DNA of 33,222 nt from Acidobacteriota bacterium (GTDB lineage: Bacteria > Acidobacteriota > Thermoanaerobaculia > Gp7-AA8): NCBI GenBank assembly GCA_003223635.1, contig QHVS01000156.1:1-33222 (forward strand), in the 5' to 3' direction. The stretch's first letter is position 1. Every line of letters begins with the position of its first letter. The notes under the pieces were generated by a model. It was not told the origin of the DNA. It saw nothing but the letters and a program-made list of their open reading frames with translations, and did not search any database. Both the position numbers and the translations under genes were made by a program. This document shows, piece by piece, positions 1-9,731 of the stretch.

Positions 1-1
1 C

Positions 2-1582
2 TCCACCGATCTCTACGTCGACAAGGCGTCCGTCCTGAACCGGCCAAAGCGCGAGGAGTCCTACTTCTTTCCCTTGTACCGCGACGGGCTGCGGGAGCTC
101 ACGTTCACTCCTCAGGTGACGCAAGCCGATTTGAACGGCCTCCTCTCCACACTGGAAATCAAGGACCGCGATCTCGGACCGGGCGACGACATGGTCAATC
201 ATCTCTGGCGTCGCGATCTGACCACAATCACTCACAGCGCGATCGATGGTATCGGTGAGTCAGAAGACGCGGGAGAGGGAGGAGCCAGCGAGCTGCACGG
301 CCTGATCGCCGAGTTGGCGGACAAGATCAAGAATCCAGCCGCCCCCACCCTGGGCCAATCCTACGCGTTCGTGCTCGATGCCGACATGAAGGTGGCTGCT
401 CAGGACCTCCACTATGACGCCACGACGATGCGTCGCACGTTCGAAGAGAATCCGGCCGTTCTGCGGTTGTCGGACGAGCAAGCCGCGCAGCTCCGCGCGG
501 AGCTTGGAGAGGATCGCGATCAAATTCTTGTGGAACGCTTCATCGAGATCCTGCTGGTGATCGTTCGTTCACCGGGAAAGTCGATCGACGGGGCGGTGCT
601 CGCTCCAGTCTTCCAGCAGCTGGCCGACGCATATTGGAACGCACACGACTACGCTCGTGTGGCGGCGATTCTGACGCCCGTCCTCGCGGCTGCCAGCGAT
701 GCTCCTACTCCCGAGCATCGGGCGGCGATGGCGGATGTGGTTCGCCGCTTCGTCACTCCGGAGCGGCTGAACATCATCCTTCTCGATTTTGTCGGCGGAG
801 CGCTCGCGCCAAAGATCGCCATGCGCTTCTGGGACTTCGTGCCCGACGAGGTTGTCTGGCCGATTCTGCTCGACGCCTGGTCGCGTCTTCCGGAAGGTGA
901 AACGCGGACGCTGGTACTCAACGCACTGCGCACCCGTCTGGCCAGAAACCTCGACCTGCTGCGGCAGACGCTCTCCTCTCCGGAGCCCGCTCGCATCCGG
1001 GCCGCACTGGCGCTGCTCGATGCGAAGACGGAAAAGATCTTCATCAATGACGTCATCCGCCTGGCCGAGCACCCGGAGGAGTCGATCCGGATCAAGGGGC
1101 TGGCGGCAGCGGCGCGAGTGGGTGGGCCGGCAGGATTCGAAGTCCTGTGGAAAGCGATGGAGAGCGACCCTTCGAAATCCGTTCGCCTCTATGCCTTTCG
1201 CGCGGTTTCCACGACGCAGTGGCCGGGATTTGCACCGCGGCTGCAAGCGCTGGTGACCGACTCTCAATTCGCCCAGCGGCCAGCGTGGGAGCGCGAGAAA
1301 TACGTGCGCCTTCTTGGCGCAATCGCCGGCCCGCAGGCTCAGCCTCTATTCGAATCATGGATCCCGTCGAAGCGCTGGTTGTGGCAGACGAAGGACCTGG
1401 AGATGCTCGAGCTGGCGCTGCGAGGGCTCGGCTCGACCGGAGCCAGCGGATTGGAACGGGTGCGGGCGCTCGCAGCGGGCGGCGGGAAGCCTGCCGAGGT
1501 CGCGAGGAAGGTCCTGGAGAGCCTCTCTGGCGAAGGGGGTCTCGAAGGGAAGCGAACCCTGGCCGGCTCGAGCAAGCCATGA
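2..1582 (+). CDS. HEAT-repeat domain protein (5' end outside window)
   Basis: Frame stays open upstream of the listed ORF start to the window edge (STDLYVDKASVLNRPKREESYFFPLYRDG...); helical repeats such as 'ARIRAALALLDAKTEKIFINDVIRLAEHPEESIRIKGLAAAARVGG'. Confidence 0.75.
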   Translation, partial: STDLYVDKASVLNRPKREESYFFPLYRDGLRELTFTPQVTQADLNGLLSTLEIKDRDLGPGDDMVNHLWRRDLTTITHSAIDGIGESEDAGEGGASELHGLIAELADKIKNPAAPTLGQSYAFVLDADMKVAAQDLHYDATTMRRTFEENPAVLRLSDEQAAQLRAELGEDRDQILVERFIEILLVIVRSPGKSIDGAVLAPVFQQLADAYWNAHDYARVAAILTPVLAAASDAPTPEHRAAMADVVRRFVTPERLNIILLDFVGGALAPKIAMRFWDFVPDEVVWPILLDAWSRLPEGETRTLVLNALRTRLARNLDLLRQTLSSPEPARIRAALALLDAKTEKIFINDVIRLAEHPEESIRIKGLAAAARVGGPAGFEVLWKAMESDPSKSVRLYAFRAVSTTQWPGFAPRLQALVTDSQFAQRPAWEREKYVRLLGAIAGPQAQPLFESWIPSKRWLWQTKDLEMLELALRGLGSTGASGLERVRALAAGGGKPAEVARKVLESLSGEGGLEGKRTLAGSSKP

Positions 1583-3069
1583 CCGACCCGACGAAGTCGC
1601 AGCAGCCGACCCAGCGCGTCACGATCGACGACCTCGCCCTGCGCGGCGCGGACAACGTGCTCGGAGAAGGCCCGAATGCCGTGATGCACACCTGGTTTCA
1701 GCTCTTTCGCACCGCGCAGATTCACGCCATCGACAATCAGGCGCTGCAGCGGCCGATCGTGGCCATGGTTGAAATGACGAACGACGTGGTTCCACGTGAA
1801 GGCCACGTGTCATTCCAGGCGAAAGACAAATCCATTTTCGTCAACGGCGCGAAGCTTCGCCTCTCGACGGATGAATACGAGCTGGCCGGGGCAGTCTTCG
1901 ATTTCTTCGAAGAGCGCGGGATGGGGGGCTTCACCATCAGCAAGCCGATGGACGCAGACGCAGTGCGCAAGCTCCTGGCGGTGCTGGTATACACACCGCC
2001 GGCCGATCGAAAGTTCGAGAAGCTGGACGCGGCGCTCAAAGCGGCGGGCATTCCGTTTCGCCTCAACAAGCCGCTCGGCGCATCAAAGAGCAATGAAGAA
2101 ATGGCGCTCGAGCGCCGCAGTTACACGTTCTTCACTTACTCGAAGCTCGTCGTCCTCTATCGCAGCCTGATCAGCGACGACAAGCTGAACATGCAGCGGC
2201 GAACGTATTACTTGAAGAAGATCGCGCGCACCATACAGGCGCTCGTCGACATCTGCATCGAGGACGACCACACGTTCCTGGGATCGTCTTCGGTGAAGAG
2301 CGGCGAAGCCTACGCGCCGCATCACGCCGCCAACGTCGCGGTCTTGTCGATCGCCCTCGGCGAGAAGCTCGGCCTCTCCAAAGTCGCTCTGGCCGATCTT
2401 GGTCTGGCCGCGGTGTTTCATGACGTAGGCATCCGGTCCTGCCCCGCCGAACTTCTGGAAAAGCGGCAGGCCCTTGACGCGAGCGAACGGGCGGTCATCG
2501 AGCAGCATCCGCTCCGTTCGGTCGAGTATCTTCTGCAGGAACGCACGTTCAGCAAGTCCGTGCTTTCCCGCATCGTGGTGGCCTTCGAGCATCACCGGAC
2601 GTACGACGGCGCCGGATATCCCTTCGGCAGCCGCCGGCCCGACCTGATGGCGCGTATCGTGACCATTGCCGACGTGTACGACGCCCTGACGACCCAACGT
2701 CCCTGGCGAAAGGCCCATCTGCCCGACGAGGCGCTGGGAATGATGATGCGCGAGTCGGGAAAGCGATTTGATCCGGCGCTTCTCTCCGTGTTCGTCAATA
2801 CTCTGGGGCTTTATCCGATCGGCACGCTCGTCCGACTGGACAGCGGTGAGCTTGCAGTCGTGGTCTACAGCGGCGGCGAAGGCGAGCGCATCAGCCGGCC
2901 GATCGTCGCCCTTCTGGGGCGCGATGGGAAACCGGCAGGAACCGTCGATCTCGCCGAACGCGCGCCCTCAGGCAGTTACAAGCGCACCGTCACAGCATCC
3001 GAAGATCCGGCAAAGTATGGTCTGCAGACCTCCGCGTTCGTCGCCGGCAGCGCGGGAGTGACACAGTAA
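1579..3069 (+). CDS. HD-GYP-like domain protein
   Basis: ATGA overlap with upstream CDS; motifs HHAANVAV, FHDVGIR, IEQHPLRSVEYLL, HHRTYDGAGYPFG, ADVYDALTTQRPWRKA. Confidence 0.85.
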   Translation: MTDPTKSQQPTQRVTIDDLALRGADNVLGEGPNAVMHTWFQLFRTAQIHAIDNQALQRPIVAMVEMTNDVVPREGHVSFQAKDKSIFVNGAKLRLSTDEYELAGAVFDFFEERGMGGFTISKPMDADAVRKLLAVLVYTPPADRKFEKLDAALKAAGIPFRLNKPLGASKSNEEMALERRSYTFFTYSKLVVLYRSLISDDKLNMQRRTYYLKKIARTIQALVDICIEDDHTFLGSSSVKSGEAYAPHHAANVAVLSIALGEKLGLSKVALADLGLAAVFHDVGIRSCPAELLEKRQALDASERAVIEQHPLRSVEYLLQERTFSKSVLSRIVVAFEHHRTYDGAGYPFGSRRPDLMARIVTIADVYDALTTQRPWRKAHLPDEALGMMMRESGKRFDPALLSVFVNTLGLYPIGTLVRLDSGELAVVVYSGGEGERISRPIVALLGRDGKPAGTVDLAERAPSGSYKRTVTASEDPAKYGLQTSAFVAGSAGVTQ

Positions 3070-3072
3070 CTC

Positions 3073-5259
3073 ATGGTCGATCGGCGCGATCGTCTTGCCG
3101 GAATGACCGGGACGCCGCCGAGCGCGGCGAACACGCCGACGCAGCGGCTGGAGCGAACGGTCGTGTCCCCCCGCCCAGCCCGACGTCAGGCATTGCTGTA
3201 CGCGCCACCGCCCGTCGCGGCCGCGCCGTATCTCACGATCCTGGAATCCGAGGGCCTCGACGTACTCGTGGCGAACAGCATGGACAGCGCCGCGGTACTC
3301 CTGTCCAACGCTTCTCCCGCGCTGATCATCGCGTTGGTGCCGGTGCTGGGCGACGAATTGCGTGAGCTGTTCCGGAAACATGCTCCGAACGCCGAGATCC
3401 GGGCGCTTCCCGGGCTGACGCCGATGCTCGAAGATGCGGTGGTGCGGCCGCGCGACGCGTTCGAATTCGCCATCCGGACCATCGTGGCCGCCGCCGGCGT
3501 GATTTCCGCGTCACGAAAGACACCGCGGGAGCGGACGGTGCGCATTCTCCAATTGACGGAGGGCGCTACAGCGGCGATGCGCTTCTCCGATACCGACGCT
3601 GCTGCCGCTCGGGTGATCGCCGCGCTTTACGACGTGCCGCAGGCGCTCTCCGGAGATGAGAGCGGCGCGCGAACCGAACGTGACCACGAAACACGAAGAC
3701 GTGAGCGAGACACTCACCGTTCGCTCCTCGCGGAGTTTATCGCCGGCCTCCAGTCGCCATTCCCGATCATCGTCTCGCCATCGCCCGGCGATCCCGCGCA
3801 GCGGCTTCCCGTGCCGCTGGAGATCGTGGAAGCGGCGGGGGCCTTCGCTCTGCTCCAGGAAGCCCGGATTCCGCAGGCCGCGGTGGCCCTTCGCAAACTC
3901 GCTGTGTCAGGCGACCTGCATCCAATCGCTGTCGAGGCGATCATCAAGGCCGCCGCGCAGGAAACCGATGCCGCAGCTCGCGGCCGCATTCTCATCATCG
4001 ACAGCGATGCCGGCGCGCGGAACCTCCTCGCCTTGCGCCTGGCCAATGAAGGTTATGGCACCGATGCCGCTGCCGATGGCCGCGCGGCGCTGGAGATCAT
4101 CCGCCGTGAGCCACCGGCGCTGATTATCAGCGAGACGGTCCTGGCAGGAATGGACGGCTTCACGCTGCTGGACACGCTCCGGCGGGAAGGGCGCAACATT
4201 CCGTTCGTCTTTCTTTCCGCGCGCAATGATGCCCTCTCCATGAACAAGGGACTGCTCCTTGGCGCGGCCGACTTCCTGGCCAAGCCGATCAACACCGAAG
4301 TCCTGATGACGAAGCTGCAGAAGCTCCTGGGACAGGCGCTTGCGGCCGCAGAGGTCTCGGCGCGCATTTCCCTCTCCGACGTCAGCAGCGGGTCGCAACA
4401 GCACCCGACCGTCACGTACGCCCAGCTCGAGCCGGGCGTTTCCATCCTCGGGCGTTTCCGTCTCGTCGCCGATCTCGGCGAGGGCGGCATGGGCAAGGTA
4501 TTCCGCGCGCGCGACGAGCGGCTGGAAGAAGACGTCGTGATCAAGGTGATGAAGGAATCGCTGACCGGCGATCCGAAGACGCTCGAGCACTTCAAACGCG
4601 AAATCCGTCTGGCGCGCAAGATTTCTCATCCGGCCGTCGTCCGCATCTTCGACTTCTGGGAAGTCGGCCCGTTGAAATTCGTAACCATGGAGTTCTTGCC
4701 GGGAACCGATCTGGCGAACGAAATCGAACGGCGGGGAGCGTTTCCGCTACCGGTAGGGCTGCGCATCGCCGCAGAATTCTTCGAGGGTCTCGCCGCCGCA
4801 CACGAGCTCGGCGTCGTGCACCGCGGCATCAAGCCGCACAACGTTTTTCTTCTGAGCGGAGGCCGGGTCAAGATTCTCGATTTCGGCATCGCCCAGGGAC
4901 TGGACCCCGAGCGACCGGACCACACCGTCACCACGAGCGTGATCGGAACGCCTGACTACATGAGTCCCGAACAGCTCGTGGGGCAGAAACTCGATGCGCG
5001 CACCGACATTTACTCCGCCGGCGTAATGCTGTACGAGTTGCTGACCGGGTCGCTTCCGTTTGATGACTCCGACCGCGCGACGGCCGTTACGTCGCGGCTG
5101 CATCGAGATCCGTTGCCGCCGTCGCGCTACAACGCGAAGATCCCGGCCGCGGTCGACGAATTCATCCTTCGCTTGCTCGCTCGCAACCGCGAGGAGCGAT
5201 GCCAGGAGGCCCGCAGCGCGGCGACGGAGCTGCGCAATATTTTGCGATCGCTGCGGTAA
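3073..5259 (+). CDS. Receiver-domain / Ser-Thr protein kinase fusion, likely with an extra N-terminal receiver-like domain
   Basis: Receiver-like RILIIDSDAGARNLLALRLANEGY...LIISETVLAGMDGF...FLAKPI, then kinase LGEGGMGKVF, VVIK, HRGIKPHN, DFG, GTPDYMSPEQ, DIYSAGVMLYELLTG. Confidence 0.9.
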   Translation: MVDRRDRLAGMTGTPPSAANTPTQRLERTVVSPRPARRQALLYAPPPVAAAPYLTILESEGLDVLVANSMDSAAVLLSNASPALIIALVPVLGDELRELFRKHAPNAEIRALPGLTPMLEDAVVRPRDAFEFAIRTIVAAAGVISASRKTPRERTVRILQLTEGATAAMRFSDTDAAAARVIAALYDVPQALSGDESGARTERDHETRRRERDTHRSLLAEFIAGLQSPFPIIVSPSPGDPAQRLPVPLEIVEAAGAFALLQEARIPQAAVALRKLAVSGDLHPIAVEAIIKAAAQETDAAARGRILIIDSDAGARNLLALRLANEGYGTDAAADGRAALEIIRREPPALIISETVLAGMDGFTLLDTLRREGRNIPFVFLSARNDALSMNKGLLLGAADFLAKPINTEVLMTKLQKLLGQALAAAEVSARISLSDVSSGSQQHPTVTYAQLEPGVSILGRFRLVADLGEGGMGKVFRARDERLEEDVVIKVMKESLTGDPKTLEHFKREIRLARKISHPAVVRIFDFWEVGPLKFVTMEFLPGTDLANEIERRGAFPLPVGLRIAAEFFEGLAAAHELGVVHRGIKPHNVFLLSGGRVKILDFGIAQGLDPERPDHTVTTSVIGTPDYMSPEQLVGQKLDARTDIYSAGVMLYELLTGSLPFDDSDRATAVTSRLHRDPLPPSRYNAKIPAAVDEFILRLLARNREERCQEARSAATELRNILRSLR

Positions 5260-7078: not shown

Positions 7079-7651
7079 TCACCCCACGATCACATCCAGC
7101 TCGTTGATGATCTCGTTGATCGAGTGGAAGCGAAGCGACGCCGGGTCGGAGATCAGCCCGTCGAGCGCCGGTGTGGCGAAGCCGGCAGCGGCCACTTGCT
7201 GGCGCAGCGGAAGCGCTTCCGCCCGCAACTGATCGGGCGGGTGCGGCAGCGGCTCTTGCGCTGCCCCTTCCGGTCGATAGGTCTGGCGCTCGATGGCCAC
7301 CCGCCGCGCACGGAGTTTCGATTGAAACGCGCGAATCGCGTTGCTGACTGCAGGCGAGAGCGACGTCGCCTGTTTCAACTGCGCCACATCGGCCTGAAGC
7401 ATCTCCAGCGCCGGGATGACATTCGTTGCGTCTGCGGCGCTCAGCTCGTTGACGATGGCCGCAACATCATTCAACGCGAAGTCGATGTCGTTGACGGCCG
7501 CGGCGCTCAACGACTGACCGGCCATTTCCACCGCGTTCATGAGAACGGTCATCGACAGGCGCAACTGCGAGGCGAACATCTCATCGGTCACAGCGTCGAC
7601 TACCGTCTTCAATTGGAAGACCGCTGCTTCCAGCATGACCACATCGTTCAT
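7079..7651 (-). CDS. Uncharacterised helical protein, overlapping the slipin gene
   Basis: 190 aa ORF; start overlaps the stop of the slipin CDS by 4 nt; no family recognised. Confidence 0.6.
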
Positions 7652-8403
7652 TGACGTTTCACCAGCTCGGCAAGGCCGCTCAGGATGTCGATGGGGAGCG
7701 GGAACACGATCGTGGTGTTCTTTTCAACTCCGATCTCCGTCAGCGTCTGCAGATAGCGGAGCTGCAGCGCCACCGGTTCGCTAGCCAGGATCTTGGCCGC
7801 GTCGGCCAGCCGCTGCGAAGCGGCAAACTCGCCTTCGGCATGGATCGTCTTCGCCCGCTTCTCGCGCTCGGCCTCCGCCTGCTTGGCCATGGCCCGCAGC
7901 ATCGACTCCGGCAGGTCGACCTGCTTCACCGCGACGTCGGCGACCTTCACTCCCCACGGCTCGGTGTGTTGATCGAGGATGCTCTGCACGCGGGTGTTGA
8001 GCGCATCGCGATGTGCCAGCAGCCCGTCGAGCTCGACCTCGCCCAGGACCGAGCGGAGCGTCGTCTGCGCGAACTGGGACGTCTGGTACCGGTAATCGAA
8101 AACCTCGACCACGGCGCGGCGGGGGTCGACCACGCGGAGAAAGACGACCGCATTCACCTTCAGCGTCACGTTGTCGCGAGTGATGATGTCCTGCGGCGGC
8201 ACCTCGAAGGCCTCCTGTCGCAGCGACACGCGCACCATGCGATCGATCGGGGCGAAGACCAGGAAAATCCCCGGCCCCTTCGCCTCCTGCAGCAGCCGGC
8301 CCAGCCGGAAGATCACTCCTCGCTCGTACTCCGGAAGGATCTTGATCGAGCTGAGGATATAGATGCCGAGGATGATGATGATGACGAGCAGACCGACGCT
8401 CAT
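7648..8403 (-). CDS. Slipin / SPFH (stomatin-prohibitin) family membrane protein
   Basis: [37 protein letters not shown]...[20 protein letters not shown]...[22 protein letters not shown]; longer ORF trimmed to this ATG. Confidence 0.9.
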
Positions 8404-8462
8404 AGTTCTCTCCTGACCAGTTGGGCGGCGAGATTGTATCGGATGCCGGCTGCTAACCGGCG

Positions 8463-9731
8463 CTACTCTGCGGGTTCTACGCGCAGGTGCAGCCCGTCGA
8501 CGCCGCTGACCCGCACGCGCGTCCCTTCCGGCAGGGATGTCGGCGCCACGGCGTTCCACAACTCACCGTGCACGAATACTTTCCCTTCCGGACCGAGCTG
8601 TGTTCGCGCCACGCCGATCTCACCGATCATCCCCTCCCGTCCCGTGGCCACCCGCACACGTCGCGCGCGAAGGACGAGAGTGGTCAGGAAGATGGCGATC
8701 AGGCCGATCGGCACGCTGACGATCAGTGCCGTTAGGAGATGGACCCGCATCTCCGGAATCGGACCGTCGACCAGGAAGAGGGCGCCGAAAATCATGCAGA
8801 TGATCCCGCCGATGCCCAGAACGCCATGGGTGGCGTACTTGGCCTCGAGAGCGAAAAGCGTGAATGCGAGGAGCAGCAGGGCCAGGGAGGCGTAGCGGGT
8901 GGGCAGCAAATTGAGCGCGAAGAGCGCCAGAAGAATGGAGATGACGCCTACCACTCCCGGCACGACCGCGCCGGGATGATTGAACTCCGCAAAAATCGCC
9001 AGCGCGCCAAGGGCGAACAGCAGGAAAGCGATGTTGGGGTCCATCAACTTCGAGAGCAGCCGCTCCTTGAGCGACATGTCATAGGTTCGAAGGGGCTTTC
9101 CGACGAGATGCAGCGTGGTCGTGGAGCCGTTGTATCGACGCAGTGTTTTCCCGTCGAAGGCCTGGAAAAGCGATGGCAGATTGGGCGCCACCACGTCGAT
9201 CAACTTCTGGTGCAGGGCCTCGTCTTCGGTGAACGACTTCGATTCGCGCACGGCGCTCTCGGCCACCGTGACGTTGCGGCCGCGACGCGCAGCGATCGTG
9301 CGCATGAATGCCGCCGCATCGTTCTCCATCTTCGTCTTCATGATCTCATCCATCTTTTCGCCGAAGACGACAGGATGCGCCGCGCCGGTGTTCGTGCCCG
9401 GCGCCATCGCCGCGATGTCCGCGGATTCGAGGATGAAAAAGCCTGCCGATGCCGCCCGGGCCCCCGCCGGCGCCACATAGACAATCACCGGCACGCGGGA
9501 GGTCATGATCTTCTCCACGATGGAGCGGGTGGAGTCGATCAGTCCGCCGGGGGTTCGCAGTTCGATGACCACCGCGTCGTCATTCGTGCGGGCCGCTTCA
9601 GTCAACGCCCGTCCGATGAACTCGTCGCTGATCGGATGAATCATGTCGTCGACCGTGATCTTCAGAATCGCGGCCTGCGCGCAGAGGGGGATGGCGAAAG
9701 CGAGTGCGCTGAGCAGAAATCGACGCGGCAT
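8463..9731 (-). CDS. NfeD family protein (ClpP-like serine protease plus NfeD domains)
   Basis: Signal peptide; [48 protein letters not shown]; multiple TM helices; C-terminal OB-like [28 protein letters not shown]. Confidence 0.9.

Follow-up and report, generated by a model that had tools for sequence, protein, structure and literature searches.

The HEAT-repeat protein and the HD-GYP-like protein encoded by two overlapping genes at the start of the window (the whole 33,222-nt stretch of Acidobacteriota DNA that was analysed here) probably form a two-gene heteromeric sensor/phosphodiesterase complex, of which the version in the window would bind its nucleotide instead of hydrolysing it. We infer this function from sequence and give the reading a probability of about 0.6. 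The initial annotation had grouped the two genes with a receiver-kinase fusion gene immediately downstream and had pointed to the three together as a candidate undescribed system; what emerged from our analysis is a two-gene HEAT/HD-GYP module, and a three-gene system was not supported. The main feature of the locus, an N-terminal domain common to the HEAT and HD-GYP proteins, had been overlooked. In a literature search that covered a minority of subscription journals, no paper was found that describes paired HEAT and HD-GYP genes.

All three genes are located on the plus strand. The HEAT-repeat gene (1..1582), whose product matches HEAT_2 (PF13646) above the curated cut-off, is truncated 5' by the edge of the window, with 526 of 583 amino acids inside; its start was recovered on contig C354 via an exact 34-bp overlap, which gave the full protein of 583 amino acids. 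The HD-GYP-like gene (1579..3069, 496 amino acids) matches HD_5 (PF13487, 3.5e-24), and the lineage-specific fusion gene (3073..5259, 728 amino acids) matches Response_reg (1.9e-21) and Pkinase (3.3e-49). The first two genes overlap by the ATGA at 1579-1582 (context gccATGAcc), and the TAA stop codon of the second, at 3069, is followed by CTC and then by the ATG of the kinase gene at 3073; both the overlap and the 3-nt gap are as originally described. Pairwise dN/dS was about 0.12-0.28 for all three genes, with dS near saturation; like the motif counts given below for the HD-GYP relatives and for the kinases of this genome, these values speak against chance as the source of the deviations. Promoter and terminator scans found nothing clearly over chance. 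Further along the window, at 7648-9731 on the minus strand, a slipin/stomatin-like gene lies beside an NfeD-like protease gene, both named by reading the sequence. Slipin/stomatin-like and NfeD-like genes are a common gene pair, and they are also found close to the module at a related locus, L010.

The N-termini of the HEAT and HD-GYP proteins were found to be homologous over about 140 amino acids (hhalign probability 99.2%, E 1.4e-19, 142 columns). This domain covers residues 30-175 of the HD-GYP protein (1666..2103); of the copy in the HEAT protein, the initial ~57 residues are encoded upstream of the window and the remainder at 2..256. Control comparisons with column-shuffled profiles reached at most 0.1% and those with other domain pairs at most 0.7%, and the score was about unchanged when alternate halves of the sequences were used. 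The domain matched no Pfam family and no solved structure in the PDB. All five of its matches in the genome of the window belong to the two HEAT/HD-GYP pairs of that genome. At held-out loci, that is, loci that were not used for model building, a HEAT gene was located directly upstream of 14 of 21 domain-bearing HD-GYP genes and of none of the 29 domain-less ones (Fisher p 1.2e-7, a test that ignores shared ancestry); these groups were defined by presence of the domain, and the neighbouring gene was the only free outcome. For six of the remaining seven genes the upstream gene carries the shared domain with a weak or absent HEAT signal, which brings the total with an upstream partner to 20 of 21; no partner was found for the seventh, L152. 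The upstream partners at L161-L165 have, besides the shared N-terminal domain, a C-terminal part with little or no recognisable HEAT repeat. In the HD-GYP tree, the domain-bearing genes lie on one side of a single branch (support 74).

When HD-GYP relatives were gathered from Acidobacteriota and their neighbouring genes mapped, a large gene was found directly upstream of nearly every member of the subfamily, often with an ATGA overlap, and 39 of 42 of these upstream partner proteins had a HEAT_2 match. Of 396 Acidobacteriota genomes, 107 were matched in a family profile search, and in about 30 of these the match spans just the HD-GYP half. The same pair is present in four Nitrospira genomes, in one Methylomirabilota genome and in one unclassified genome with two pairs, which were found by searching the genomes behind other loci, and also at L011, whose phylum is unassigned. 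The genome of the window contains a second pair (L104, G000 contig C86, 5865-9180). The HD-GYP protein of this second pair has an intact HDIGK motif and NYP in place of GYP, a form that also occurs in G008. Six loci (L080, L081, L082, L083, L085 and L087) contain two pairs in tandem, in the order HEAT-HD-HEAT-HD; because the leading pairs and the trailing pairs group in clades of their own, the module was duplicated as a unit. Furthermore, the distance matrices of the HEAT and HD-GYP proteins were correlated (rho 0.68, compared with at most 0.19 in 2000 permutations), although vertical inheritance alone gives some correlation of this kind. Unusually long upstream partner frames of about 1200 amino acids, possibly fusions, were observed at L083 (1539-5144) and L090 (1939-5640). 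Genes following the HD-GYP gene in some relatives, assigned as alpha-L-rhamnosidase-like by reading of the sequence, were considered and rejected as part of the module, as most relatives lack them.

The HD-GYP domain of the window protein (about residues 225-410, 2251..2808) is predicted with confidence by AF2 (pLDDT 90 for the protein), the top Foldseek matches are all HD-GYP structures, and a beta-rich C-terminal extension follows in the AF2 secondary structure (2809..3066). The HD dyad, the GYP motif and all seven metal ligands (H249, H281, D282, H310, H338, H339 and D365) are present, and the two deviations read in the initial annotation are real: HDVGI stands for HDxGK, with Ile285 (2431..2433) at the position of the Lys, and HHRTYDGAGYP (residues 338-348, 2590..2622) stands for HHExxDGxGYP, with Arg340 at the position of the Glu. 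A test for co-variation of the altered motifs had been suggested, and co-variation was not borne out, since the loss of the HHE Glu is family-wide, that of the Lys is clade-specific and the kinase change discussed below occurs in the window only. Among 112 HD-GYP sequences, the HHE Glu is absent from 71 of the 72 with the N-terminal domain and kept in 39 of the 40 without it, the single Glu-less case among the latter being the 3' half of a gene with a frameshift. In unpaired HD-GYP proteins HH is followed by Glu, in paired ones mostly by a hydrophobic residue or by Arg. The HDxGK Lys is kept in 62 of the 72 domain-bearing relatives, and it has been lost in the clade of the window (I/L/L), in a related Tyr/Phe/Ser clade and at L074, losses which amount to two changes when counted by tree. 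The missing HHE Glu is a signature of the domain-bearing HD-GYP family, to which the clade-specific loss of the Lys was added as a second step; the one being family-wide and the other confined to one clade and one more branch, the two changes are separate steps. At the Nitrospira loci L012-L015, HD-GYP proteins that lack the N-terminal domain have Leu or Ile for the HDxGK Lys and keep HHE and GYP.

The best sequence and fold matches of the window protein, PmGH (4mcw), PA4781 (4r8z) and V-cGAP3 (5z7c), share with it the HD-GYP fold and the metal ligands. The window protein differs from these in its replaced HHE Glu, its constant HEAT partner gene and its new N-terminal domain, and, together with its clade, in having lost the HDxGK Lys. 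In PmGH, hydrolysis of c-di-GMP is abolished by K225A, the position equivalent to Ile285, and is not abolished by changes in GYP (PMC4159591), and the Lys loss in the window protein therefore makes impaired catalysis likely. However, PmGH belongs to the trinuclear E/D-T-G group, while the window protein, like the HEAT-paired HD-GYP family, has Tyr at the position of PmGH E185, as in the group with Y/F at this position that is predicted to be binuclear (PMC4159591), and the effect of K225A may thus not transfer exactly. The unconventional inactive HD-GYP protein Bd1817 of Bdellovibrio (3tm8), to which the window protein has a fold match with an E-value of 3.8e-8, likewise has a metal-bound HD-GYP fold whose signature is altered. 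It is the GYP tyrosine that Bd1817 is missing (PMC4159591), whereas in the window protein GYP is intact and the Lys and the Glu of HHE are gone. The closest parallel to the proposed mode of action is found in FimX-type degenerate c-di-GMP enzymes, in which an altered enzyme domain binds a ligand or partner (PMC12943098), although these have GGDEF/EAL domains instead of HD-GYP and binding by the window protein is a proposal from sequence.

We propose that the HEAT and HD-GYP proteins would assemble via their common N-terminal domain, that in most members the HD-GYP subunit would hydrolyse a cyclic dinucleotide, c-di-GMP or a similar one, and that the HEAT solenoid would relay the signal onwards to other proteins. 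The HD-GYP subunit in the clade of the window, which has Ile or Leu for the Lys yet keeps the metal ligands, the GYP motif and the Arg that binds guanine (Arg374, the equivalent of PmGH R314), may mainly bind the nucleotide and serve as a sensor. The 18 GGDEF and 10 PilZ matches in the genome of the window suggest that c-di-GMP is probably present in this organism. Binding rather than catalysis had already been suggested in the initial annotation; for the HD-GYP protein this agrees with a conserved active-site change and a likely impairment of catalysis, while the three-gene unit in which it was placed did not hold. Alternatively, the HD-GYP protein of this clade could still be an enzyme, one whose intact metal centre hydrolyses c-di-GMP or some other phosphodiester at a low rate or with a changed specificity, under regulation by its HEAT partner. 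This could account for the conservation of the seven metal ligands, GYP and Arg374, for purifying selection on the gene (dN/dS of about 0.18 relative to L010) and for the existence in Nitrospira of HD-GYP proteins that have HHE and GYP but no such Lys. We consider it unlikely in view of the loss of activity in PmGH K225A (PMC4159591), and because the sister Lys-less group also lacks GYP, which fits a release from catalysis.

The product of the fusion gene consists of a degenerate receiver-like N-terminal region (residues 39-125, 3187..3447; weak matches to receiver-domain profiles, E 5e-5 and 5e-4), a second receiver domain (3988..4317) with Glu354 (codon 4132-4134) at the phospho-acceptor position, and a Ser/Thr kinase domain (4462..5205). 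The kinase shares the VAIK Lys and the DFG motif with PknB-type bacterial Ser/Thr kinases and differs from these in being placed behind an unusual receiver and in having, in the window, HRG for HRD (G585, codon GGC at 4825-4827). The possibility that residues 126-300 are an eroded HD-GYP domain found no support, with an hhalign probability of 0.2% and no match to Pfam or PDB profiles in this region; the AF2 model of the fusion (pLDDT 39, too few homologues) was too poor for use. Matches of the fusion in PADLOC, which might have pointed to a defence system, were generic kinase matches. A search with its N-terminal part found the gene in G000, G006 and G014 only, and G010, from the same family, has a HEAT/HD-GYP pair without a kinase gene beside it. 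Of the gene order HEAT/HD-GYP/REC-STK whose conservation the initial annotation proposed to check, it is the HEAT/HD-GYP part that recurs, and the kinase gene is, to judge from its occurrence in three genomes, a local and recent addition to the pair and not part of a conserved unit.

A non-canonical signalling system of three genes, in which a HEAT scaffold would act with a binding-only HD-GYP protein and a pseudokinase, is therefore very unlikely, as the kinase is missing from the majority of pair-bearing genomes, G010 among them. In each of the three genomes with the kinase gene, the three genes do stand next to one another, and the receiver Asp is replaced by Glu in all three orthologues, so that this receiver would not be phosphorylatable in the usual way. 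However, both kinase orthologues (L010 and L058) have HRD, one base from HRG, and the altered motifs do not co-vary. That two consecutive proteins deviate at catalytic positions thus holds as a conserved feature for the HD-GYP protein and, in the kinase, for the window alone, where the enzyme is probably inactive. Among the 27 kinases of the genome with a readable motif, 26 have HRD and the fusion kinase is the sole deviant. The single-base difference, GGC for GAC, may reflect either a sequencing or assembly error or a recent loss. An error in this metagenome-assembled genome, which would make the kinase an ordinary one and is compatible with the two-gene complex, is a possible but not a favoured explanation: the orthologues have HRD, and two related loci each contain a frameshift or deletion that could be assembly errors too, while the three frames of the window are otherwise intact and its HD-GYP motifs all fit those of relatives. 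The frameshifts affect the HEAT gene of L010 and the HD-GYP gene of L058, and the kinase orthologue at L010 (5142-7250) is missing 20 residues, among them the VAIK Lys, through an in-frame deletion or an assembly artefact; these defects may reflect assembly quality.

HD-GYP proteins are usually annotated singly as c-di-GMP phosphodiesterases, whereas the proteins described above make up an entire branch of the family, from soil and sediment bacteria that resist cultivation, with a fixed protein partner, an unnamed shared domain and a changed signature motif. A bolder extension of the two-gene complex, which we regard as tentative and rather improbable, is that the shared domain is a dedicated hetero-assembly domain of a new type of cyclic-dinucleotide complex present in at least three phyla, with the HEAT protein acting directly as effector and the partner tuning the residue that follows HH. 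If the pair is a complex, to annotate these HD-GYP proteins as simple phosphodiesterases would be incorrect or would tell only part of the story, and the HEAT protein would be a candidate cyclic-dinucleotide effector.
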